A stretch of DNA of 64,000 bases from Solimonas flava DSM 18980 (GTDB taxonomy: Bacteria > Pseudomonadota > Gammaproteobacteria > Nevskiales > Nevskiaceae): contig NZ_KE384553.1 of NCBI RefSeq assembly GCF_000426685.1, positions 266,906-330,905 of the forward strand. Reading direction: 5' to 3'. How positions within the stretch are numbered: the first letter of the stretch is position 1; the number at the start of each line of letters is the position of its first letter. The translations under genes were made by a program, and so were the position numbers. The notes under the pieces were generated by a model, which made no database searches, was not told where the DNA came from, and worked only from the letters and a program-made list of their open reading frames with translations. Below are positions 52,116 through 64,000 of the stretch, piece after piece.

Positions 52116-53510
52116 GTGACAAGAACAACAAGAAGGGCTCCGCCAACAGGGAGGTTCTGCGTCGCTGCCGTGCTCGGCGGCGTGCTGTCGGCTGCCTCGG
52201 CCTATGTCACGCCGGAGGACGCCGCCGTGCTCGGCGCGCGCCTGAGTCCGCTCGGCGCCGAGGTCGCCGGCAATGCCAGCGGCACGATCCCGGCGTGGAC
52301 CGGTGGCCTGACGGCCCCGCCGCCCTGCTTCGAGGCCTCGCGCGGGCGCTACTGCGATCCGTATCCTGACGACCGTCCGCTGTACGTGGTCACCGCGGAG
52401 AACCTGACGCAATACGAGGATCTGCTGACGCCCGGACAGCGGGCGCTGTTCGCGGCGTTCCCGGACAGTTACCGCATGCGCGTGTTTCCGACCCGGCGCA
52501 GCTTCGCCAATCCGCCACCGGTCTACGCCGCCGCGCTCGCCAATGCGACGCACGCGGTGCTGGTCGACGGCACGCTCGACAAGGCGGCGACGGCGGTGCC
52601 GTTCCCGCTCCCGGCAAACGGTGTCGAGGCGATGTGGAATCACCGGCTGCGCTGGCGGCCGCTGGTCACCGAGCGCGTGTCGGCGCAGTTCGCGGTCGCC
52701 GCCAGCGGCGATTTCTCGCAGGCGCAGCTGCGCGAGCAGCTCCGATTCGATTACGGCGAGGAGGGTTACGACCTGCACGCCGCGCGCGGCGTGCTGTCGC
52801 AGCGTCTGCAATGGATCGAGGCGCCGGAACGACTGGCCGGCGCCGGCCTGCTGATCGAGGACGTCGCGCGCGCCGCCGATTTCGGCCGGCATCTGTGGCA
52901 GTTCGGGACCGGCGCCGAGCACACGCAGCGCGTGCCGAACCTCGGCTACGACACCTCCGGCATCGGCACCGACGACCTGCGCACCAACGACCAGATCGAC
53001 ACCTATTCCGGGCCGCTCGACCGCTACGACTTCAAGCTGGTCGGCAAGCAGGAGCTGCTGGTGCCGGCCAACAGCTACGCGCTGCACAGCGATGCCGTGC
53101 CGTACCGCGAGCTGGTCGGCCGCCATCACCTGAACCCGGATCTGGCGCGCTACGAGCGCCGCCGCGTGTGGGTGGTGGACGCCACGGTCAAGCGCGGCAG
53201 CAGCCATCTCTACCGGCATCGCCGCTTCTACCTCGATGAGGACGGCTGGCAGATTCGCGTGGTCGACAATTACGACAACCGCGATGTGCTGTGGCGTGTG
53301 CAGGAGACGCATAGCGTGATGGCCTACGACCGGCTGTACGAGCTGCCGGTCGCGGAGACGGTGTACGATCTTCCGGGCAGCCGCTATCTTGTCCAGTCAC
53401 TGAACAACGAAGGTCCGGAGGTCGCGTATCCCGCGATCGAAGCCGGCGACTTCGGGCCGTCCGCTCTCGCGCGGCGCGGCAGAAAACTGAGCCGCGATGC
53501 GCAGCGCTGA
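52116..53510 (+). CDS. DUF1329 exported protein (LolA-like)
   Basis: A 464-residue protein with a signal peptide ending near LSAASA. The family pattern is clear: ARLSPLGAEVAGNASGTIPAW, later RVPNLGYDTSGIGTDDLRTNDQ and RYERRRVWVVDATVKRG, and a C-terminal NNEGPE. DUF1329 proteins have a lipoprotein-carrier-like fold and sit with YCF48 and RND genes in envelope lipid or steroid-export cassettes. The GTG at 52116 is preceded by GGAG; an ATG at 52086 is alternative and would give an unusual leader. TACACT at 52074-52079 may be the -10 box. Confidence 0.88.
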   Translation: MTRTTRRAPPTGRFCVAAVLGGVLSAASAYVTPEDAAVLGARLSPLGAEVAGNASGTIPAWTGGLTAPPPCFEASRGRYCDPYPDDRPLYVVTAENLTQYEDLLTPGQRALFAAFPDSYRMRVFPTRRSFANPPPVYAAALANATHAVLVDGTLDKAATAVPFPLPANGVEAMWNHRLRWRPLVTERVSAQFAVAASGDFSQAQLREQLRFDYGEEGYDLHAARGVLSQRLQWIEAPERLAGAGLLIEDVARAADFGRHLWQFGTGAEHTQRVPNLGYDTSGIGTDDLRTNDQIDTYSGPLDRYDFKLVGKQELLVPANSYALHSDAVPYRELVGRHHLNPDLARYERRRVWVVDATVKRGSSHLYRHRRFYLDEDGWQIRVVDNYDNRDVLWRVQETHSVMAYDRLYELPVAETVYDLPGSRYLVQSLNNEGPEVAYPAIEAGDFGPSALARRGRKLSRDAQR

Positions 53511-53583
53511 GCGCCGCAACGGACGAGCGGTCAAGAATCGTAAGAATCGGGCGGCGCCAGCCGCGTGCGTTTTTGGGGGTTTC

Positions 53584-54588
53584 ATGGACGTGAAGAGAGC
53601 TTGGAGATTCGCCGCAGCGGCCGCGCTCGGCGTGCTGGCCGGCAGCGCCGCCTGGGCGCAGGACGAAGCGGCCGGTGAATCGCCGGGAAAGCAGGGGGCG
53701 GTCAAGCCGATGCCGGCCGAGATCATGCCGCGCACGCCCGAGTCGCTGCTGCTCGACATCAAGAACACCGGCGAGCATCTGATCGCCGTCGGTGACCGCG
53801 GCGCGATCATCGTCTCCAACAACGGCAAGGACTGGGCGCAGGTCGAGGTGCCGGTGCGTGCGGCGCTGACCGCGGTCGCGTTCGCCGATCCGAAGCATGG
53901 CTGGGCCGCCGGCCACGACGCGGCGATCGTGCACACCGACGACGGCGGACGCACCTGGAAGCTGCAGAACTTCCAGCCCGAGCTTGAAAAGCCGGTGCTG
54001 AGCCTGCTCGCGCTCGACGCGCAGCACGCGCTGGCGGTCGGCGCCTACGGGCTGATGCTGGAGACCACGGATGCCGGCTCGACCTGGAACGAGGTCGACA
54101 CGCACGGCTTCGACGAGGACGAGCTGCATCTGAATGCGATCGCCAAGCTCAACAACGGCGACCTGTTCATCGCCGGCGAGCAGGGCCTGCTGGCGATCTC
54201 GACCGACGCCGGCGCCAACTGGCAGAAGCAGGAATCGCCGTATGACGGCTCGTATTTCGGCGTGCTGCCGCACGGCGAGAAGGGCGCCATCATCTTCGGC
54301 CTGCGCGGCAACGTCTACCTCAGCGACGATGCGCGCTCGGGCAAGTGGACGCAGCTGCAGACCGGCACCGTCGCGTCGATGTTCGGCGGCGCCGCGGTGC
54401 CCGGCGACGGCGAGGTGCTGGTGGGGCTCAATGGCGTGATCGTGACGGTCTCGGCGGAGGGCAAGGTCGAGACGCTGCAGTCGCCGGCCGGCACACCGCT
54501 GTCCGGCGTGCTGCCGTACGGCGACGTGCTGCTCGCCGTCGGCGAATCCGGCGTGCAGCCGATCCCGCTGTCCCGTCCGCTGAAGTAA
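53584..54588 (+). CDS. YCF48-related beta-propeller protein
   Basis: A 334-residue protein with a signal peptide (FAAAAALGVLAGSAAWA). The mature part has repeating blades of the YCF48/BNR type, such as AVGDRGAIIVSNNGKDW, AAGHDAAIVHTDDGGRTW, AVGAYGLMLETTDAGSTW and AGEQGLLAISTDAGANW. It lies between DUF1329 and an RND permease, the usual order, so it is probably a periplasmic part of that transporter. Function beyond this is unknown. Confidence 0.88.
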   Translation: MDVKRAWRFAAAAALGVLAGSAAWAQDEAAGESPGKQGAVKPMPAEIMPRTPESLLLDIKNTGEHLIAVGDRGAIIVSNNGKDWAQVEVPVRAALTAVAFADPKHGWAAGHDAAIVHTDDGGRTWKLQNFQPELEKPVLSLLALDAQHALAVGAYGLMLETTDAGSTWNEVDTHGFDEDELHLNAIAKLNNGDLFIAGEQGLLAISTDAGANWQKQESPYDGSYFGVLPHGEKGAIIFGLRGNVYLSDDARSGKWTQLQTGTVASMFGGAAVPGDGEVLVGLNGVIVTVSAEGKVETLQSPAGTPLSGVLPYGDVLLAVGESGVQPIPLSRPLK

Positions 54589-54603
54589 CCGGGCCTGATA
54601 TCC

Positions 54604-57429
54604 ATGAGTGACAAGCACGAACTGACCCGCACGCAACGCATCCTGCGCGCGATCGAACCGCTGATCTACGCCAGGCGCGGCCTGACGATGGCGATCCTCG
54701 TCATCGCCACCGTGTTCCTGTTCTGGCAGATGATGCAGATCAAGCGCGACGCCGGCTTCGACAAGTCGATTCCGCTCGAGCATCCGTACATGCAGGTGCT
54801 CAAGCAGTACATGGCCGAGTTCGGCGGCGCCAACACGGTGCTGATCGCGCTGGTGCAGAAGCCGGGCAAGGGCGACATCTACAACGAGAAGTTCCTGACC
54901 TCGCTGAAGACGGCGACCGACGAGATCTTCTTCCTGCCGGGCGTCGACCGCTCGCGCGTGTCGTCGATCTTCACGCCGGACGTGCGCTACATCGAGGTCG
55001 TCGAAGGCGGCTTCGCCGGCGGCAACGTGATCCCGGCCGACTACCAGCCGACGCAGAAGTACTTCGACATGGTCCGCGCCAACGTCGGCAAGGGCGGCCA
55101 CGTCGGCCGCTATGTCGCCAAGGACCAGAACGGCGCGATGATCTACTCGGAGCTGCTCGAGGTCGACCCGGTCAGCGGCGAGAAGCTCGACTACGAGAAG
55201 GTGGCGCAGGGGCTGGAGGAGAAGCTGCGTGGCCGCTTCGTCAATCCGAAGAAGATCCTCTACAAGCTCAAGAGCGACAAGGGACCGCTGAAGGCGGGAA
55301 CCCAGGTCGGCGAGGGCTTCGTCGACTACGGCTGGAAGCTGGCGCTGCAGAACTTCGAGGTTGCGGACCCGCGCGATCCGAACGCCAAGCCGATCACCGT
55401 GCACGGCTACGAGGTGACGACGGAGACCGTCGACAATCCGCAGTACAACCCCGACATCGACGTCCATATCGTCGGCTTCGCCAAGGTTGTCGGCGACGTC
55501 ATCGACGCCACCATGCAGGTCGTGCTGTTCTTCCTGCTGACGCTGGTGATGACGCTGATCCTGCTGTGGCTGTACGTCGGCAGCTTCAAGCTCGCGATCC
55601 TGCCGCTGATCTGCTCGGTCACCGCCGTGATCTGGGAGTTCGGCCTGCTGCGCCTGATGGGCAAGGGCCTCGATCCGTTCGCGATCCTGGTGCCGTTCCT
55701 GATCCTGGCGGTGTCGGTCAGCCATGGCGTGCAGTACGTCAACGCCTGGGTCGGCGAGATCACCATGAACCGCCGCAACAGCTTCGACGCCTCGCTCGAA
55801 ACCTGGCGGCGTCTGGCGATCTACGGAACGATGGCGATCATGACCGACGTCGTCGGCTTCGCGCTGATCGGCCTGATCCCGATCGACATCATCCGCGAGA
55901 TGGCGCTCAACGCGACGCTCGGCATGGCCGCGATCATCATCACCAACAAGGTGATGATGCCGATCATGCTGACCTGGGTCGATATCGGCGATCCGGTCGC
56001 GTTCCAGCAGAAGCAGGATTCGCGCGACAGCGTGTTCGATCCGCTGTGGCACCTGATTTCGAACATGGTGCGCCCGGCGCCGGCGGTCATCGCCATCGTC
56101 ATCGGCGCGGGCCTGTTCGGCTGGAGCCTGTGGAAGGGAGAGGAACTGCAGGTCGGCGACAGTCAGGCCGGCGTGCCGGAACTGCTGCCCGATTCCCGCT
56201 TCAACCAGGACATGGCGGCGATCAACGCCAACTTCACGGTCGGTACCGATATCTTCAAGATCGTCGCCGAGATGGATCCTGAAGCCTGCGTGCGTTACGA
56301 CATGATGGAGCAGGTCGACCGCTTCGATCAGCACATGGAGAACACGGTCGGCGTGCAGAGCATCCTGTCGCTGCCGTGGGCGGCCAAGCAGGTCAATTCG
56401 GCGTTCTCGGAAGCGGCGCCGAAGTTCCGCGTGCTGCCGCGCAACCAGTACGCGATCGTGCAGGCGATCACACCGATCCCGACCTCGTCCGGCCTGCTCA
56501 GCCCGGACTGCTCGGCGCTGGCCGTGTTCGTGTTCACCAAGGACCATACCGCAGCCACGCTGGAGCGCATCGTCGACGACACCAAGGCGTTCAACAAGAG
56601 CAACGCCGCCGAGTTCTTCGAGACGCACAAGGACGTCGATGCCAAGTACTGCGACGCCAAGCTCGACGCGCGCCGCGACGTGGGCGTTACGCGCGTGAAG
56701 ATGGAGAAGTACGTCGAGAAGCTGAAGAAGAGCGGCAAGAAGCTCAGCGACAGCGAAATCGCCGAGAACGCCAAGGTCAAGGACCTGACCGCCAAGTACG
56801 AGGCGGCCAAGGACAAGCTCAAGGGCATGGACAAGGCCTGTCCGGTGAACTTCGCGCTGGCGACCGGCAACGTCGGCGTGATGGCGGCGACCAACGAGGA
56901 AGTGCACCGCCTCGAGCGGCCGATCCTCTACATCGTCTACGCCGGCATCATCATCTGCGTGTTTCTGTCGTTCTTCGAGTGGCAGTCGATCGTTTCGATC
57001 ATGCTGCCGCTGGCGCTGGTTTCGTTCATGGCCTACGCGGTGATGGCGATCCTGGGCATCGGCATGAAGGTGGCGACGCTGCCGGTCGTCGCGCTCGCCG
57101 CCGGCATCGGCGTCGACTACGGCATTTACGTCTACGCGACGCTCGCCGATGCCACGGCCGGCGGCTACAAGCTGCGCGACGCCTACTTCAAGACGCTGAA
57201 GATGACCGGCAAGGCCGTGGTGTTCACCGGCATCACGCTCGGCATCGGCGTCGCGACCTGGCTGTGGTCGGGCCTGCAGTTCCAGCGCGACATGGGCAAG
57301 CTGCTGGTCTTCATGTTCACCGCGAACATGTTCGGCGCGATTCTGCTGCTGCCGGCGATCGCCTCGTTCCTGCTCAAGCCGCGCGAACTCGCGCCGGGCG
57401 AGGCGCCGGTCTTCAAGCCGCGCCACTGA
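54604..57429 (+). CDS. RND/MMPL superfamily permease
   Basis: A 941-residue membrane protein. The first membrane helix (LTMAILVIATVFLFWQMM) is followed by a large periplasmic loop, then a sterol-sensing-like five-helix bundle (residues 295-480), a second periplasmic loop and a second bundle (775-930). The second loop includes a Lys-rich coiled coil (about 695-760; LKKSGKKLSDSEIAENAKVK) that most relatives I know lack. It belongs to the DUF1329-YCF48-RND cassette, proposed to move lipids or steroids across the envelope, and ends at a strong terminator. Confidence 0.9.
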   Translation: MSDKHELTRTQRILRAIEPLIYARRGLTMAILVIATVFLFWQMMQIKRDAGFDKSIPLEHPYMQVLKQYMAEFGGANTVLIALVQKPGKGDIYNEKFLTSLKTATDEIFFLPGVDRSRVSSIFTPDVRYIEVVEGGFAGGNVIPADYQPTQKYFDMVRANVGKGGHVGRYVAKDQNGAMIYSELLEVDPVSGEKLDYEKVAQGLEEKLRGRFVNPKKILYKLKSDKGPLKAGTQVGEGFVDYGWKLALQNFEVADPRDPNAKPITVHGYEVTTETVDNPQYNPDIDVHIVGFAKVVGDVIDATMQVVLFFLLTLVMTLILLWLYVGSFKLAILPLICSVTAVIWEFGLLRLMGKGLDPFAILVPFLILAVSVSHGVQYVNAWVGEITMNRRNSFDASLETWRRLAIYGTMAIMTDVVGFALIGLIPIDIIREMALNATLGMAAIIITNKVMMPIMLTWVDIGDPVAFQQKQDSRDSVFDPLWHLISNMVRPAPAVIAIVIGAGLFGWSLWKGEELQVGDSQAGVPELLPDSRFNQDMAAINANFTVGTDIFKIVAEMDPEACVRYDMMEQVDRFDQHMENTVGVQSILSLPWAAKQVNSAFSEAAPKFRVLPRNQYAIVQAITPIPTSSGLLSPDCSALAVFVFTKDHTAATLERIVDDTKAFNKSNAAEFFETHKDVDAKYCDAKLDARRDVGVTRVKMEKYVEKLKKSGKKLSDSEIAENAKVKDLTAKYEAAKDKLKGMDKACPVNFALATGNVGVMAATNEEVHRLERPILYIVYAGIIICVFLSFFEWQSIVSIMLPLALVSFMAYAVMAILGIGMKVATLPVVALAAGIGVDYGIYVYATLADATAGGYKLRDAYFKTLKMTGKAVVFTGITLGIGVATWLWSGLQFQRDMGKLLVFMFTANMFGAILLLPAIASFLLKPRELAPGEAPVFKPRH

Positions 57430-57455
57430 GGCCGCTTTCGTTGCGTCTGCGTTCG

Positions 57456-57484
57456 ATGGCCCACCTCGCGTGGGCCATTTTTTT
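57456..57484 (+). terminator. Terminator of the DUF1329-YCF48-RND operon
   Basis: ATGGCCCAC (57456-57464) pairs with GTGGGCCAT (57470-57478) and is followed by a run of seven T residues. It separates this operon from the tolC-like gene. Confidence 0.92.
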
Positions 57485-57616
57485 GGCGCGGCGATTTCTT
57501 ACCGACAAAGTTCATCGTCTGCGGCCATAATGCCAACGGCACGCCCGCGGGCACGGCGCGCCCACGTAGAAGCGACGGGCTGCCGGGTCGGGCGGCTGCT
57601 AACGAGGAATCTGGGG

Positions 57617-59029
57617 ATGCTGTTTCGCACGAGACTGTACCGGTCATGCGGCCGGGCATGGGCACTGTTGTGCGTCGTGGCGGCTGCGCAGGCGGCGGCC
57701 CAGGACGTCGCATCGCCACCGCCGTCCGGGCCCGCCGATCTGCTGTCGATCTGCGGCGACGCCTTGCAGCTCAATCCCGCCTACGAGGCGGCGCGCGCGC
57801 AGTTCTTCGCGGCCCGGCAGCTGCTGCCGCTGGCGCGCGGCAAGCTGCTGCCGCAGCTCGAAGCCGGCGCGCAGTTCGCGTGGACGCACGACGACACCGA
57901 CGTCACCTATTACGACATCTACCACGTGTCGGTGAACGACACCTACACCCGCACCGTCTACGGTGCGCAGCTGACGCAGGCGCTGTACCGGCCCGACCTG
58001 TTTCTCGGTCTGTCGAAGGCCGAGATGCAGCAGAAGCAGGCGAGCTTCGGGCTCGACGCCGCGCAGGACGGCCTGCTGATCGAGGTCGCGTCGGCCTATT
58101 TCGCGGTGCTGGCGGCGCGCGACGCGCTGGTCTTCGCCAAGGCCGAGACCAAGACCCTGGCCGAGCAGCTCGACTACATCAGCTCGCGCGCCGAGGCCGG
58201 CCTGGCGACGCAGGCCAACGTCAAGGAGGCGCAGGCCGCGCACGAACTGGCGATCGCCGACCAGACGGCCGCCGAGAACACGCTGGCCGCGTCGCGCATG
58301 TCGCTCGAGGCGCTGACCGGCAAGAGCTACGGCGAGCTCAAGGTGCTGCCGCCGAACACGCCGCTGGCGCCGCCGCAGCCGCTCGACGAGTCGGTCTGGG
58401 TGCAGCGCGCGCAGAGCGAGAACCCGCAGGTGCTCGCCAGCCGCGCGGCGCTGGAGATCGCCAAGATCGAGCGCCGCGTCGCCCAGGTCGGCCGCTATCC
58501 GAAGGTCGACATCGTCGGCACCGCCTATTCGCTCGACAACGGCGGCGGCATCACCGGTGACCGCAATCAGGACGACGCCCAGATCGGCATCAAGTTCGGC
58601 ATGCCGCTGTTCACCGGCGGCCAGCTGACGGCGGCGATTCGCGGCGCCGAGGAGCTGCAGAAGAAGGCCGAGGCCGAGGAGCGCAACGCCGTCGCCAAGG
58701 CCGTGCGCGACACCCGCATCGCCTATCTCAACAGCTCGGCCGGCCTGCAGCGCGTGCTGGCGCTGCGTCGTGCGGTGGAAGCGGCGATCGAGGCCGAGGC
58801 CTCGGCGCGCGCCGGCTACGACGCCGGCACGCTGACCAATGCCGACGTGCTCGACGCGATCGACCGCCGCTACCAGGCCGAGGCCAATTACGCCAACGCC
58901 CGCTACATGTTCCTCGTCAATTCGCTGAAGCTGAAGCAGTCGGCCGGCAATCTGCTGACGGCGGATCTGGCGCAGATCAACCGCCTGCTGCAGTCGCCCG
59001 CGACGGCGCCGGCGCCGACGCAGCACTGA
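57617..59029 (+). CDS. TolC family outer-membrane efflux protein
   Basis: A 470-residue protein with signal peptide ending in AAAQA/AAQ. Two repeats of the OEP fold are seen: ALQLNPAYEAARAQFFAARQ, QQKQASFGLDAAQDGLLIEVASAYFAVLAARDAL and, in the second half, RVLALRRAVEAAIEAEASARAGYDAGTLTNADVLDA. It probably forms the outer-membrane channel for the HlyD-like protein encoded 16 bp downstream. It starts a new operon after a strong terminator. Confidence 0.94.
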   Translation: MLFRTRLYRSCGRAWALLCVVAAAQAAAQDVASPPPSGPADLLSICGDALQLNPAYEAARAQFFAARQLLPLARGKLLPQLEAGAQFAWTHDDTDVTYYDIYHVSVNDTYTRTVYGAQLTQALYRPDLFLGLSKAEMQQKQASFGLDAAQDGLLIEVASAYFAVLAARDALVFAKAETKTLAEQLDYISSRAEAGLATQANVKEAQAAHELAIADQTAAENTLAASRMSLEALTGKSYGELKVLPPNTPLAPPQPLDESVWVQRAQSENPQVLASRAALEIAKIERRVAQVGRYPKVDIVGTAYSLDNGGGITGDRNQDDAQIGIKFGMPLFTGGQLTAAIRGAEELQKKAEAEERNAVAKAVRDTRIAYLNSSAGLQRVLALRRAVEAAIEAEASARAGYDAGTLTNADVLDAIDRRYQAEANYANARYMFLVNSLKLKQSAGNLLTADLAQINRLLQSPATAPAPTQH

Positions 59030-59045
59030 AGGCCGGACCCGCACG

Positions 59046-61382
59046 ATGCATCGCTACCGCCGGTTCGTCGCTGCGTCGGTCGCAGATCTCGGCGTCCAGG
59101 TCGAGCTGTCGGGCGGCGAGGGCCTGCCGCGCCTGCGCCTGAGCGCCGACGAATACCGGCTCGCGCAGCTGTTCGACGGCGCGCGCGGACCGGACGAGCG
59201 CCTGGCCGCGGCGCGTGCGCTCGACATCGACACCAGCGCGGCGCGGCTCGAAGGCCTGGCCGACCGCCTCGCGCGCGCCCAGGTCCTGCAGCGCGGCACG
59301 CACGAGACGCTGCCGGTGCCGGCGCAGTCGGTCGACGAAGCGCGCGAGCTGGGCTGGCTCGATGGCCACGTCGGTCGGGCCGGGCGCACGCACGAGCCGC
59401 TGGCGCTGCCGCCGTCGTCGATGCCGGGCTCGCGCCTCAGTCCGGGCCTGCTCGGCGGCCTCGCCGGCCTGGTCGGCCGGCGCGGTCGCGCCAATCACAT
59501 CGATCTGCCGCTGTCGCCCGGCGGCCTGGTCGCGCTGGGCCGCCCGTTCGCTGCGCCGCTGGCTTCGCGCGCCGGGCTCTACACGCTGCTGTTCCTGGTC
59601 GTGACGCTGGCGGTCGCGTTCTACCAGCGCCGCTTCGACGCGGCGCGCCACGTCGCCATGCTCGCGCATCTGTGGCCGTTCCTCGGCGCCGCGGTGCTGT
59701 CGGCCTATCTCGTCAATCTGGTGTCGATGGCGGCGCGCGCGGCGGCGGTCGCGCGCTACACGCCGAGCCGGCCGCGCGTCGGCCTGCGCATCACCTCGCT
59801 GTATCTGCCGGCCCTGTTCGTCGACACCGCCGGCCCGGCCGAACACGCCGGCCGCGCGACGCGCCTGCGCATCGTCGGCAGCCCGCTGGTCGCCACGCTC
59901 GGCCTGTTCGTGCTGGCGACGCTGCTGTGGTTCCTGACGCATCTGACGCAGCCGCGGCTGGCGGCGTTCTGTGTCGCGACGATGGCCGCCTGCGTGATGT
60001 CGACGGTGATCCGCATCAATCCCATCGCGCGCCGCGACGGTTACTTCCTGCTGCTCAATACTTTCGGCGTTTCCGACCTGCGCGAAACGGCGGCGCTGGT
60101 GTTCTTCGGCTTCGGCCGGCGGCCCTGGCAGGTCGCGCGGCGCGAGGTGCCGTCGTCGGTACTGCGTCTCTACGCCTGGCTGGTCGGCGCGTTCTGGCTG
60201 CTGGTCGCGGTGATGATCTTCAATTACTCCGGGCGCTGGCTGGTCGAGCATCTGCGCGGGGTGGGTTTCCTGTTGGTGGCAGCGGTTTTGGGGGTGTACA
60301 TGGTCAAGCAGATGGGCAAGACGGACTCGGCACGCAGCAGCCTCGGCTGGACGTTCTCGTGGTGGCCGTTCTCGGAGAAGACGACCTGGATCGCGGTGAC
60401 CGTGCTGCTGATCGGTCTGATTCCGTATCCGTACGAGCCGAGCGGCGACATGATCGTGCTGCCGCGCGCGCAGGCCGACGTCCGCGCGCTGGTCGCCGGC
60501 GACATCCGCGAGGTCCTCGTCAAGGAAGGCGACACGGTCGCGGCCGGGCAGGTCATCGTGCGGCTTTCCGACGACGTCTACGCCGCCAAGCTCGCCGCCA
60601 GCGAAGCGCAGCTTGCGTCGCTGAAGTCGGATCTGGCGCTGGCGCAGAAGGGCGGCAAGCCGGAGGAGGTCGAGGTCGCCCGGCAGGCGGTCGCGACGGC
60701 GCGCACCAAGGCCGAGTTCTCGCGCATCAACGCGCAGCGCCTCGCCCAGGCCTACCAGCGCAAGGCGGTGACCTCGCAGGAATACGACCGCGCCCGCGGC
60801 CAGGCCGAAGTCGACGCGCAGCTGCTGCGCGAGGCCGAGCAGCAGCTGGCGCTGGTCTCCAGCCCGGCTGCCGCCGATCGCCTCGACTCGATCCGTGCCG
60901 ACCTGCAGCGCGTCGAGGCCGAGCTCAAGTTCAACCGCCAGCAGCTCGGCTACACCGAGGTGAAGGCGCCGATCGTCGGTCGCATCGTGTCCGGTACGTT
61001 GCAGTTCGCGCACGGCAACTACCTGAACGTCGGCGAGCGCGTCGCCATCATCGAGGATGCCGGCGCCAAGCGCGCCGAGATCAAGATGCCGGAGTCGTCG
61101 ATCGGCGCCGCCAAGGTCGGCAATACCGCCTGGGCCAAGTCCTGGGCGTATCCGTGGCACAGCTTCGCCGGCACCGTCTCGGCGATCGCGCCGGCCGCCG
61201 AGGACAGCCCGTACGGCAAGGTCGTGCGCGTCGAGATGGAAGTCGATGATCCGCAGGATCTGCTGAAGTCCGGCATGACCGGCAGCGCCAAGGTCGACGG
61301 CGGCTGGAGCCTGGCCGGCGTGGTCTTCACGCGTGCGCTGGTCCGCTTCGTGTTCGTCGAGGTCTGGTCCTGGCTGCCCTGA
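59046..61382 (+). CDS. M50-like pseudoprotease fused to an HlyD adaptor
   Basis: A 778-residue fusion. Residues 1-90 form a PqqD/winged-helix-like domain (RLRLSADEYRLAQLFDG). Residues 175-420 form a multi-helix site-2-protease-like membrane domain. Where HExxH is expected, residues 224-228 read NLVSM. The second motif is kept (INPIARRDGYFLLLNTFGVSDLR, 324-346, D331-G332), as is YLPALFVDTAG (253-263). Residues 450-750 form an HlyD/lipoyl adaptor with a long coiled coil and KAPIVGRIVSG. Such M50-HlyD fusions accompany peptide or protein exporters. With TolC just upstream this looks like an envelope export machine. Confidence 0.82.
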   Translation: MHRYRRFVAASVADLGVQVELSGGEGLPRLRLSADEYRLAQLFDGARGPDERLAAARALDIDTSAARLEGLADRLARAQVLQRGTHETLPVPAQSVDEARELGWLDGHVGRAGRTHEPLALPPSSMPGSRLSPGLLGGLAGLVGRRGRANHIDLPLSPGGLVALGRPFAAPLASRAGLYTLLFLVVTLAVAFYQRRFDAARHVAMLAHLWPFLGAAVLSAYLVNLVSMAARAAAVARYTPSRPRVGLRITSLYLPALFVDTAGPAEHAGRATRLRIVGSPLVATLGLFVLATLLWFLTHLTQPRLAAFCVATMAACVMSTVIRINPIARRDGYFLLLNTFGVSDLRETAALVFFGFGRRPWQVARREVPSSVLRLYAWLVGAFWLLVAVMIFNYSGRWLVEHLRGVGFLLVAAVLGVYMVKQMGKTDSARSSLGWTFSWWPFSEKTTWIAVTVLLIGLIPYPYEPSGDMIVLPRAQADVRALVAGDIREVLVKEGDTVAAGQVIVRLSDDVYAAKLAASEAQLASLKSDLALAQKGGKPEEVEVARQAVATARTKAEFSRINAQRLAQAYQRKAVTSQEYDRARGQAEVDAQLLREAEQQLALVSSPAAADRLDSIRADLQRVEAELKFNRQQLGYTEVKAPIVGRIVSGTLQFAHGNYLNVGERVAIIEDAGAKRAEIKMPESSIGAAKVGNTAWAKSWAYPWHSFAGTVSAIAPAAEDSPYGKVVRVEMEVDDPQDLLKSGMTGSAKVDGGWSLAGVVFTRALVRFVFVEVWSWLP

Positions 61383-61445
61383 GCATGACGCTCGCGCCGT
61401 GCCGCCTGTGCCTGATGCCCGCGTGCGGGCGGGAGAGTCTGCGCC

Positions 61446-62924
61446 ATGACTGACGCGGCGTGGCCCTTGCGCGAAGCCGATTTCCGCCTGACCTGCGAGA
61501 ACGGCTTCGGCGACGGCTGGAACCACTACGCGCACAGCATGGCGTGGTTCCGCGGTCGCCTGTACGTCGGTACGACGCGGGCGACGATGGCGATGAACAA
61601 GTGGGTGATCCCGCGGCCGGAGATGCGGCCGTGGCCGGTCGAGTGCCCGGAGGACGTCTACGATGTGCCGCGCCAGGCCGAGATCTGGGAATACACCCCG
61701 GAGACCGATACCTGGCTGCGCGTCTATCAGGCGCCGCTGGTGCCGGGCCGCGAGCTCAAGCGTCTGGTGCCGCGCTACATCGGCTTTCGCGGCATCACCG
61801 TGTTCCAGGGGCCGCAGGACAGCGCGCCGTGCCTCTACGTCTCGACCTGGGCGCCGCTGCAGGCCGAGCCGCCGGACATCCTGCGCAGCGAGGACGGCCG
61901 CGAGTTCGGCTCGGTGCCGCGCCCGCCGTGGGACACCGTGGTGCGCTCGTTCCGCACGCTGCAGGTCTTCAACGGCCGCGTGCACACCTCGCCGACCAGC
62001 TCGACCGCGGTCGCGCGCCGCACGCAGGACTCGGTCGGCTCGGACTCGACGATCTACGCCTGCGACGATCTGATCGGCGGCCGCTGGCAGGCGGCGAGCG
62101 CCGAGGGCTTCGGCTTTCGCGCCAACGTCACCGTGTTCGAGATGGCGCTGTTCGACGGCCACCTCTACGCCGGCACCGTCAATCCGGTCACCGGCCTCGA
62201 AGTGTGGAAGACCCGCGGCGGCGATCTGCCGTACCGCTGGACGCGCGTGCTGACGCGCGGCGCCTGGCGCGGCAAGCTCAACGAAGTCGGCGGCAGCTTC
62301 TGCGAGTTCAACGGCGCGCTGTACCTGGGCACCGGCATCGCCAACGGCGGCTACCACCGCGCCGCCAACGTCGGCCCGGGCGCGGCCGAGGTCATCCGCA
62401 TCTGGCCGGACGACAGCTGGGAGCTGATCGTCGGCGAATCGCGGCTGACGCCGGACGGCGCCCGCTATCCGCTGTCGGGTTACGCGCCGGGCTTCGATTC
62501 GCTGTTCAACGGCTACATGTGGCGCATGGCCGCGCACGCCGGCCATCTGTACGTCGGCACCTTCAACTGGGCCAACATGCTGCCGTACCTGCCGACCTAC
62601 GTCTGGCCCGAGGACGTGGTGGCGATGATGTACCGCTGGGGCGAGGAGAACCTGATCCGCCGCTTCGGCGGCTGCGAGCTGTGGCGCACCCGCGACGGCA
62701 TCCTCTGGGAGCCGGTCACGCGCAACGGCTTCGGCAACAAGTACAACTGGGGCATCCGCAATCTCGTGTCGACGCCGCACGGCCTGTTCGTCGGCACCGC
62801 CAATCCGTTCGGGCCGACGGTCGCGCAGCGCATCGACGGCCACCGCTGGCAGTACGTGCACAACCCGCGCGGCGGCTGCGAGGTCTGGCTCGGCCAGCCC
62901 GCGGCGGCGGAGACGCCGGCATGA
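61446..62924 (+). CDS. Beta-propeller protein with Asp-box-like repeats
   Basis: A 492-residue protein without a signal peptide that I do not recognise by name. The pattern LYVGT or close variants recurs (residues 39, 130, 240, 292, 368 and 446), which suggests about seven propeller blades. Asp-box-like segments follow some of these (ILRSEDGREF, EVWKTRGGD, ELWRTRDGILW). Conserved aromatic and Gly residues suggest a ligand-binding face. It sits between the HlyD fusion and the sulfotransferase-like gene, whose start overlaps its stop by 4 nt (ATGA). Confidence 0.7.
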   Translation: MTDAAWPLREADFRLTCENGFGDGWNHYAHSMAWFRGRLYVGTTRATMAMNKWVIPRPEMRPWPVECPEDVYDVPRQAEIWEYTPETDTWLRVYQAPLVPGRELKRLVPRYIGFRGITVFQGPQDSAPCLYVSTWAPLQAEPPDILRSEDGREFGSVPRPPWDTVVRSFRTLQVFNGRVHTSPTSSTAVARRTQDSVGSDSTIYACDDLIGGRWQAASAEGFGFRANVTVFEMALFDGHLYAGTVNPVTGLEVWKTRGGDLPYRWTRVLTRGAWRGKLNEVGGSFCEFNGALYLGTGIANGGYHRAANVGPGAAEVIRIWPDDSWELIVGESRLTPDGARYPLSGYAPGFDSLFNGYMWRMAAHAGHLYVGTFNWANMLPYLPTYVWPEDVVAMMYRWGEENLIRRFGGCELWRTRDGILWEPVTRNGFGNKYNWGIRNLVSTPHGLFVGTANPFGPTVAQRIDGHRWQYVHNPRGGCEVWLGQPAAAETPA

Positions 62925-63844
62925 GCGCGGCGCCGCTGTTCGTCGTCGCCGCGCCGTTCTGCGGCGCCTCGCGGCTGGCGGCCGCGCTCGGTGCGCATCC
63001 GCAGCTGTACGCCGTGCCGGAAACCAATCTGTTCGTCGCCGGCACGGTCGCCGAGCTGCTGGAGATCTTCGAGCTGAGCCAGGGCAGCGACGCCGACGGC
63101 CTGCTGCGCGCGCTCGCCGAACTGGAATTCGGCGGCGAGGGCGACGAGTCCGTCGAACGCGCGCGCCAGTGGCTGGCGGCGCGCGCCGACTGGCCGACGC
63201 CGTGCGTGCTGGAGCATCTGGCGGCGCGCGTCGCGCCGCGCCGTCTGGTCGTCACCGAGACCCTGTCGGCGCTGCGGCCGCTCGACCTCGATCGCCTGTG
63301 CCGTGCCTTCCCGCAGGCCGCCGCGATCCAGCTCGTGCGTCATCCGTGGAGCCACGGCGCGCTGTTCGCCGCCTGGCTCGCCGACCGACTGTTCGTCGCC
63401 GCCGATTACCGCGACCACAGCCGCGATCTGGCGCCGATCGACCCGCAGCTCGCCTGGCTGCGTGTCAACGGCAATGTCGAGCGCGTGCTGGCGCCCGTCT
63501 ACGGCGAGCGCCTGCTGCGCGTACGCGACGAGGATTTTCGCGGCGAGCGTCTGGCGACGCTGGCAGCGATCGCCCGCCACGCCGGCGTCGCCGCCGATGC
63601 GCTGACGGTTTCCGCCCTGCAGCCGCAGGCCTGGACCTTCCACGGCTACGGCCCGCCGGCCGCGCCCTACGGTCTCGACGCCGAGCTGCTCGAGGATCTG
63701 GTGCCGGACGATGCCTCGGCCCGCCTCGACGGGCCGCTGCCGTGGCGCGGCGACGGCGTCGCGTTCGCCGCCGAGGTCGTCGCGAGTGCGCGCGCCTGCG
63801 GCTACGGGCCAGAAGAAAATCCGTCTTCGCAGAATCCGGCCTAG
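62921..63844 (+). CDS. Sulfotransferase-family protein
   Basis: A 307-residue protein. The N-terminal PAPS-binding loop looks like APFCGASRLAAAL (about residues 11-22), corresponding to the PxSGTTxL pattern, but with Cys-Gly-Ala-Ser. The second site is IQLVRHPWSHGALFAAW (about 138-154). The C-terminal part has a PYGLDAELL segment. It is a sulfotransferase fold, although the altered loop leaves activity uncertain. Its last residues are encoded by the first copy of the tandem repeat at 63831-63898. Substrate unknown; the target may be the exported product of this cluster. Confidence 0.7.
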   Translation: MSAAPLFVVAAPFCGASRLAAALGAHPQLYAVPETNLFVAGTVAELLEIFELSQGSDADGLLRALAELEFGGEGDESVERARQWLAARADWPTPCVLEHLAARVAPRRLVVTETLSALRPLDLDRLCRAFPQAAAIQLVRHPWSHGALFAAWLADRLFVAADYRDHSRDLAPIDPQLAWLRVNGNVERVLAPVYGERLLRVRDEDFRGERLATLAAIARHAGVAADALTVSALQPQAWTFHGYGPPAAPYGLDAELLEDLVPDDASARLDGPLPWRGDGVAFAAEVVASARACGYGPEENPSSQNPA

Positions 63845-63898
63845 AAGAATCCGGCTCGAAAAATCCGGCTCGAAGAATCCGGCGTAGAAGAATCCGGC
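63831..63898 (+). repeat. Tandem repeat, 14-15 bp unit
   Basis: Copies of AGAATCCGGC start at 63831, 63846, 63860 (as AAAATCCGGC), 63874 and 63889, spaced 15, 14, 14 and 15 bp by short linkers such as TCGA and CTAGA. The first copy codes for the sulfotransferase-like C terminus; the rest are noncoding. It marks the end of that gene. Nothing else is recognised in the last 100 bp except a TACACT hexamer at 63984-63989. Confidence 0.85.
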
Positions 63899-64000
63899 CG
63901 TGAGAAGCCGCCGCCGGTCCGGGCTCCGGTAGTAAAAATCGCTGGGTCCGGCGCGCCGTCACGAGCCTGTCGGCTGGCGCCCGTACACTGCGGCGCAGGC

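Follow-up and report, generated by a model that had tools for sequence, protein, structure and literature searches.

A stretch of 64,000 nucleotides from the 4.46-Mb genome of Solimonas flava DSM 18980 (G000:C4:266906-330905; hereafter the window) was analysed for four adjacent genes near its right end, which encode a TolC-family outer-membrane channel, a fusion of an M50-like membrane domain with a HlyD-type periplasmic adaptor, a beta-propeller and a sulfotransferase homologue (ST). These genes had been predicted, from the DNA letters alone, to form a self-contained envelope system. The results point instead, with a probability of about 0.7, to a dedicated envelope arm, for export and off-loading, of a specialised-lipid cluster built around a PfaA-type polyketide/fatty-acid synthase.

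The four-gene unit and the synthase cluster to its right

All four open reading frames of the original prediction were present on the + strand at their predicted positions (Table 1), and their adjacency, gaps and single overlap were confirmed: 16 bp separated the channel and fusion genes and 63 bp the fusion and propeller genes, while the propeller and ST genes overlapped by 4 bp. Directly upstream, at 53497-57429, a YCF48-like propeller gene and a gene for a HAE3-type resistance-nodulation-division (RND) transporter were found. As for the strong terminator of the original prediction, a terminator-like hairpin was present, with the longest stem of three such sites; 2.3 sites were expected from shuffles, so that the terminator scan is weak by itself. 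The sigma70-like match listed in Table 1 was the sole one between positions 57000 and 64000. A tandem repeat with a unit of ~15 or 29 bases, AATCCGGC-rich, spanned the stop codon of the ST gene (window 63814-63899; L009:2720-2805).

The order of channel, fusion, propeller and ST genes was intact in 28 of the 31 contexts picked by the fusion, that is, 31 full-length fusion loci with G023, G038, G048 and G049 left out, and in 31 of 34 Nevskiales-type loci picked by the propeller, the remaining three being cut by a contig end. Genes in the other genomes were called with our own scripts, not with a standard gene finder, and some of their starts are wrong. Among the loci fetched, the closest named relative was Solimonas variicoloris, with a propeller identity of 99%; its strain DSM 15731 (L101) shows the same gene order. 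Conserved order and co-occurrence elsewhere (see below) bear out the claim that the four genes belong together, and they form one unit beyond chance. No PADLOC model matched any of the four proteins at an E-value of 0.001, and an anti-phage defence system was rejected on this ground; plasmid carriage was likewise rejected, as the plasmid collection held no match to the propeller (E 1e-5) or to the fusion (E 1e-20).

Extension of the contig to the right, which the original prediction had suggested, revealed a PfaA-type cluster whose synthase genes begin ~9 kb beyond the window. It comprises two large polyketide synthase (PKS) proteins, of which PKS2 scored 1424.1 bits against the PfaA model TIGR02813 (cut-off, 1010.1). 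Ketosynthase (KS), acyltransferase (AT), tandem acyl carrier protein (ACP), ketoreductase (KR), dehydratase (DH) and phosphopantetheinyl transferase (PPTase) domains were each found above the Pfam cut-off in PKS1 or PKS2, with PP-binding in five PKS2 stretches, while an N-terminal FabK-like match remained below the cut-off. The PPTase motif of PKS1 reads VSISH, within the hShxH class.

Table 1. Features of the four-gene unit and of the cluster to its right; coordinates beyond the window continue its numbering
Feature	Position	Strand	Remarks
Intrinsic terminator-like hairpin between the upstream RND gene and the four-gene unit	57455..57479	+	10-bp stem, 6 G-C pairs, T-run
Sigma70-like promoter match	57502..57531	+	9/12 positions; consensus match only
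TolC-family outer-membrane channel	57617..59029	+	PF02321 E 6e-51; TIGR01844 263.5 bits
Fusion: N-terminal M50-like membrane domain (predicted dead) and C-terminal HlyD-type periplasmic adaptor	59046..61382	+	
Putative lost zinc motif site, S227-M-A-A-R231	59724..59738	+	HExxH in active M50 relatives
Retained second M50 motif NPxxxxDG, N325-G332	60018..60041	+	
HlyD/CusB-type adaptor region, ~residues 460-778	60423..61382	+	profile and fold matches
Seven-bladed-type beta-propeller	61446..62924	+	no signal peptide seen
Sulfotransferase homologue (ST)	62921..63844	+	closest solved relatives: CurM ST, OLS ST
Degenerate 5'-phosphosulfate loop, P12-F13-C-G-A-S17	62954..62971	+	PRSxxS in relatives
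Degenerate 3'-phosphate motif, R140-H-P...L148	63338..63364	+	relatives: R, then S eight on
PhoD-type phosphatase	64072-66018	+	
Double CoA-transferase, then glycosyltransferase	right of PhoD-type gene	-	
Alpha/beta hydrolase	69561-70433	-	
Free ACP	70444-70725	-	found by listing frames after our gene caller missed the gene
Hexapeptide-repeat acyltransferase-like protein	between free ACP and phosphodiesterase-like gene	-	
Type I phosphodiesterase-like protein (PDE)	71655-73274	-	
PKS1	73318-78171	-	KS, AT, DH, PPTase
PKS2	78245-87613	-	KS, AT, five ACP stretches, KR, DH
Sulfatase-like protein	87671-88486	-	

Co-occurrence of the arm and the synthase

A total of 61 related genomes were compared, and the arm and the PfaA-type synthase were found to co-occur genome by genome, often as neighbours. 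The full-length fusion was present in 34 of them (best E 1.8e-99 or lower); some adaptor match was obtained in 60 genomes, the weaker ones being generic adaptors. The propeller appeared in the same 34 genomes and was missing from the same 27, and the ST was found in 33 of the carriers (G023 being without it) and in none of the non-carriers. A failure of the four genes to co-occur in other genomes, which the original prediction had named as the result that would speak against it, was therefore not observed. Moreover, the best PfaA match of each of these 34 carriers scored no less than 716 bits, with 23 of them above the curated cut-off; in G021, which has no arm, it was 659.5 bits. Fusion, propeller, ST and synthase were absent together from G002, G026, G033 and G046, whose genus-mates have them. 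The distance between PKS2 and fusion genes was ~55 kb in G006 and ~68 kb in G014, and in the single contig of G009 the arm (1.48 Mb) and the synthase (3.06 Mb) were 1.6 Mb apart, so that the link between them is independent of proximity. On the other hand, a single strand of G024 and G034 carries the whole series in the order PKS2, PKS1, PDE, acyltransferase, ACP, hydrolase, esterase, TolC, fusion, propeller and ST.

The scan of named genomes with a propeller profile yielded 112 relatives, 80 of which were kept; from record titles and resemblance, we assigned 34 of these loci to the Nevskiales type and grouped the remaining 46 apart. The latter came from Nitrospira, Tectomicrobia, Desulfobulbaceae, Brocadia, Nitrosomonas, Neptuniibacter, Pseudomonas, Burkholderiales, Roseobacteraceae, Cyanobacteria, Myxococcota, Pirellulales and more. 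The synthase was in view in 33 of these 46 loci, the M50-like part in 29, at least one of the two in 39 and an ST in 19. Propeller, fusion and synthase genes adjoin in Nitrospira, Desulfobulbaceae, Brocadia, Neptuniibacter and Pseudomonas, and a recurrent row was observed in the other loci, running from PKS2 through PKS1, ACP, PDE and hydrolase to propeller and fusion. In Nitrospira an ST gene ends this row, and likewise in Neptuniibacter, there with no ACP or PDE in view.

The M50-like fusion and the propeller

The channel exceeded the NCBIfam cut-off for TIGR01844 (225.15 bits) with the score given in Table 1. As for the fusion, a protein of 778 residues, HlyD/CusB adaptor profiles matched its C-terminal part, and the fold matches of the HlyD part included EmrA (4tko; Z 17.3, root-mean-square deviation [rmsd] 14.4 over 282) and a MacA-MexA chimera (4dk1; Z 16.9, rmsd 4.7 over 234); as this structure comparison covered the HlyD part alone, the absence of M50 proteins from its list is uninformative. 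The structure model of the fusion had a predicted TM-score (pTM) of 0.48. No Pfam match was found for the N-terminal part of the window's fusion, and within the fusion family the Pfam M50 model gave a single weak hit (L134, E 0.064). The fusion was therefore compared with a purpose-built set of M50 proteins, five with HExxH plus RseP, together with 120 shuffles. Three HELGH proteins from the window's order and family, all above the Pfam M50 cut-off, were matched by the near N-terminal profile (E 1e-18, 1e-17 and 1e-12) and by the distant one (E 5e-36, 2e-29 and 4e-11), while RseP (0.41 and 4.1), the HExxH proteins L214 and L215 and the shuffles (best 0.039) were left unmatched by both.

Judged by these profile matches, the N-terminal domain of the window's fusion is homologous to the M50 membrane domain and appears to have lost the HExxH zinc ligands. 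The original description of the protease domain as dead agrees with this, the window's protein having S227-M-A-A-R231 in place of HExxH. The motif was gone at the aligned place in 48 of 49 fusion-family members, the exception being the fusion of a Candidatus Tectomicrobia locus (L134, 18765-21080), which keeps HELAH and has no NPxxxxDG, a motif kept by many others. Furthermore, genomes of the same order encode HELGH-intact M50-HlyD fusions (L212:1870-4095 and L213:1892-4045); both are HlyD fusions by Pfam, as opposed to L211, an M50 protein with no HlyD match, and they are possible active counterparts of the apparently dead fusion. In the cyanobacterial loci L138, L144 and L145, the M50-like and HlyD parts are encoded by separate genes.

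No Pfam or NCBIfam family above cut-off was found for the propeller, and its sequence had no relative in the PDB. The structure model (mean predicted local distance difference test, pLDDT, 85.5) was closest to virginiamycin B lyase (Z 27.7, rmsd 2.4 over 288 residues), and WD40 proteins, which are seven-bladed, trailed this match by less than 1 Z (27.1); Foldseek TM-scores normalised on the query were at most 0.46. A text pattern detected six LYxGT-type repeats, and seven blades are assigned because the fold matches say so. With propellers as the best fold matches and no signal peptide seen, this part of the original prediction holds. The alignments used comprised 27 of 31 fusions (A1, leaving out two close copies and two unreadable ones from one locus), 29 of 30 propellers (A2), 28 of 28 STs (A3) and 22 of 32 fusion candidates (A5). 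Of these three proteins, the propeller showed the strongest conservation, with a mean column identity of 63% vs. 50% for both the fusion and the ST. Moreover, among the 69 sequences from several phyla left after length and score limits, 84 positions were at least 93% identical to the window residue, and the invariant residues included Arg 45, 115, 170, 275, 318 and 438, along with Glu, Asp and Asn; the invariant Arg residues would line the central funnel. In L160, L167, L175 and L180 (some Roseobacteraceae and other gammaproteobacterial loci), a single cluster carries the propeller gene twice, along with two or three ST genes, and three propeller matches in G043 and G049 had one internal TGA, which may be a frame end or a sequencing fault.

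The propeller could also act catalytically in the lipid pathway, for instance as a lyase or cyclase with the acyl chain as its substrate, leaving transport to the channel and the fusion; this alternative has a real chance of being right, somewhat short of even. Its strong conservation, the lyase as best fold match and the place of its gene after a hydrolase or PDE gene, in line with the synthase genes of many distant loci, all favour such a role, but WD40 scaffolds lie so close behind the lyase that the fold does not show catalysis, and the PDB has no relative of the propeller by sequence.

Cargo, sulfotransferase homologue and comparison with known systems

The cargo of the arm would be the lipid of the synthase, as follows from their co-occurrence and from the known products of PfaA-type synthases (PMC3098273). 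Among the small molecule, peptide or polymer originally proposed for export, a small lipid-like molecule is therefore likely. It is conceivable, although less likely than not, that the arm inserts this lipid into the outer membrane, where it would form part of the envelope structure and not be secreted, as in heterocyst glycolipid layers. The glycolipids of the hgl islands, whose synthase is related to those of polyunsaturated fatty acids (PUFA), are laid down just outside the outer membrane (PMC11804610). The cluster of the window's species also includes a glycosyltransferase gene. Against this, an ATP-binding cassette (ABC) transporter gene, as in hgl export, was not found beside the arm, in agreement with the original remark that none adjoins the four genes: a scan for Walker A and signature motifs in the 31 contexts (within 10 kb) and the 80 loci found one protein, the same in both sets, whose 308 residues are too small for an ABC exporter, the scan covering gene neighbourhoods, so that a distant ABC gene is possible.

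The ST met the cut-off of Pfam Sulfotransfer_3 (43.4 bits vs. 27), and its profile was strongly matched among solved structures only by the CurM ST (2e-19) and the OLS ST (1.5e-19), the next one being at 0.057. Two motifs of STs, the 5' loop and the 3' motif, which we take to bind 3'-phosphoadenosine-5'-phosphosulfate (PAPS), were degenerate in the window's protein: F13 stands in place of the loop Arg and L148 in place of the 3' Ser, while the Arg of the 3' motif was kept. A total of 45 distinct Nevskiales-type STs were compared, 41 of which had lost both motifs, two had an unaligned loop and a lost 3' motif, and two were canonical (Abyssibacter and an uncultured Salinisphaerales). In contrast, 23 of the 30 STs outside this set were canonical, six had the loop cut off with the 3' motif intact, and one was an unalignable fragment; the gaps in the loop column arise from wrong gene starts. 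The tree was built from 71 distinct STs, leaving out copies, rows of less than 230 residues and a diverged type (c106), and rooted for drawing only. In it, 40 degenerate STs fell on one side of a branch with support of 100/100, the 41st being a fragment from L164, and the degenerate group adjoined the two canonical STs plus L131 (group support, 97/84). Two further ST types were noticed: a shorter, diverged homologue with neither the loop Arg nor the RHP motif in the Hydrocarboniphaga-type genomes G018 and G029 (L085:2722-3471 and L087:2680-3450), and a second ST gene product of 431-434 residues in Neptuniibacter (L146:17874-19169, L148:17856-19160 and L150:17856-19160), which matches both ACP and ST and recalls the ACP-ST order of CurM.

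The ST gene is under purifying selection, its ratio of nonsynonymous to synonymous substitution rates (dN/dS) ranging from 0.10 to 0.55 in ten genome pairs, one of which (G018/G029) represents the diverged c106 type; in most pairs it was the highest of the four genes. Motif loss in a maintained gene suggests that the protein is retained, though probably not for PAPS chemistry. The kinase of adenosine-5'-phosphosulfate (APS) was found in 59 of the 61 genomes, that of the window included; PAPS is thus probably available, and a shortage of the donor does not explain the motif loss. Loss of PAPS supply was accordingly discarded as its cause, in a test that is non-discriminating with the kinase nearly everywhere.

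The sulfation step of the original prediction is consequently doubtful in this lineage, where the loop Arg and the 3' Ser kept by relatives elsewhere are lost. It is unlikely that a working ST sulfates a small molecule recognised by the propeller and exported through HlyD and TolC, with other residues standing in for the missing Arg and Ser. The fold family, the presence of APS kinase in the window's own genome and the selection on the gene are in line with activity, and so are the CurM and OLS relatives, which are active enzymes that use PAPS to sulfonate a beta-hydroxyacyl chain carried by the synthase (PMC3903477). However, both motifs were lost together in nearly all Nevskiales-type STs and are canonical in most of the others, and at the place of the Arg stands F, G, H, A, D, N or Y, a variety that does not resemble a single substitute.

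The upstream RND transporter (54604-57429) was rejected as a missing pump belonging to the unit, a very improbable role: although it or a close homologue lies directly upstream of the channel gene in 9 of 31 contexts, all from the window's genus group, and a weaker, different RND (162 bits) lies near the arm in G003 and another ~11 kb off in G043, a terminator separates it from the channel gene, 21 of the 31 contexts have no match to it within 12 kb of the fusion, and orthologues with 72-89% identity reside on contigs apart from the arm in G003, G015, G017 and G019. Each of the nine genomes searched had at least four matches to this RND at E 1e-60.

For the envelope arm favoured here, the following route may be proposed. 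In the cytosol, the synthase would build up a long, ACP-bound acyl chain, and the propeller, produced with the ST homologue from overlapping genes, would dock on the acyl-ACP or on the released lipid and pass the cargo to the M50-like domain in the inner membrane. This domain, no longer cutting peptides, would serve as an inner-membrane entry or anchor, and the fused HlyD part would lead the lipid into TolC, through which it would reach the outer membrane or the exterior. The ancestral ST may have sulfonated the acyl chain from PAPS, like the CurM and OLS STs, and in this lineage would have lost PAPS binding and been retained as a binding partner or scaffold. Both enzyme-like parts, the protease domain and the ST, seem to have lost their catalytic motifs in this lineage. 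An M50 gate that receives acyl cargo from the propeller and the ST is an inference. The full form of this mechanism is more tentative than the arm itself and rather unlikely as a whole: an exporter made from two retired enzymes, a dead M50 gate joined to HlyD and a dead CurM-type ST with a propeller, to which acyl-ACP is handed over, and with no ATPase, major facilitator superfamily (MFS) or RND pump of its own.

Several observations weigh against an arm dedicated to the synthase. A TolC-type channel was in view in only 7 of the 46 other loci, and seven of the 46 showed neither fusion nor synthase; six of these have short flanks, and a gene for an ST, esterase or hydrolase adjoins the propeller gene in all seven. 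Synthase, propeller and fusion are present with no ST in view in seven Pseudomonas loci (L142, L143, L151-L154 and L158), and the ST is therefore accessory, not essential to the system. Several carriers hold further PfaA-type genes (640-670 bits), so that synthases of this family also occur apart from this cluster, and a PDE-like protein was found in 28 of the 34 carriers, the six without it being those outside the window's family. No energising subunit was found beside the arm, in searches that did not include MFS pumps and with neighbours elsewhere partly annotated. Finally, the co-occurrence is strong, but the genomes share ancestry and are not 61 independent trials.

The component parts are of known kinds, and no description of their combination was found in the literature searched; in the full-text collection, which leaves most subscription journals outside its coverage, no paper came up that describes such a set of genes in its title or in the first lines of its abstract. 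PUFA-type synthase clusters with uncharacterised products are common in bacteria, and the exit route of their lipids is little known. The Pfa or 'secondary lipid' clusters of Shulse and Allen (2011) share the PfaA-type megasynthase (KS-AT-tandem ACP-KR), a second KS protein and a PPTase, whose hShxH motif class is seen here in PKS1; however, the section on uncharacterised types describes no envelope arm, and the main text contains none of the terms sulfotransferase, HlyD, phosphodiesterase or secretion (PMC3098273). Likewise, the terms sulfotransferase, HlyD, TolC and propeller are absent from the main text of a 2026 survey of PUFA hybrids (PMC13291983). The propeller together with the M50-like/HlyD fusion offers a portable marker for this cluster family, from Gammaproteobacteria to Nitrospira, Brocadia and Cyanobacteria, and makes two questions testable, namely which lipid these clusters produce and whether an M50-like domain acts as a transport gate.

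Other systems resemble the arm in part. In Xanthomonas, RaxST-RaxA-RaxB combines a sulfotransferase, a HlyD adaptor and TolC-type export with a peptidase ABC transporter and a peptide precursor; the first three are shared, while a lipid-type synthase and no nearby ABC gene are found here. Known hgl export uses the ABC transporter DevBCA, whereas an M50-like/HlyD fusion with no ABC gene beside it is present here. A PUFA-related synthase and, on the reading favoured here, lipid export across the envelope are common to both (PMC11804610). The M50-HlyD fusions L212 and L213 share the two-domain plan by Pfam and an alignable N-terminal domain, and differ by the HExxH that 48 of 49 members of this fusion family lack. 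Finally, the CurM and OLS STs are the closest solved relatives of the ST profile and are PKS-linked as well, but at the PAPS motifs aligned with theirs the window's ST has lost the loop Arg and the 3' Ser; such a loss in a maintained ST, grouped on one side of a branch, would make a clean case of an enzyme turned pseudo-enzyme.

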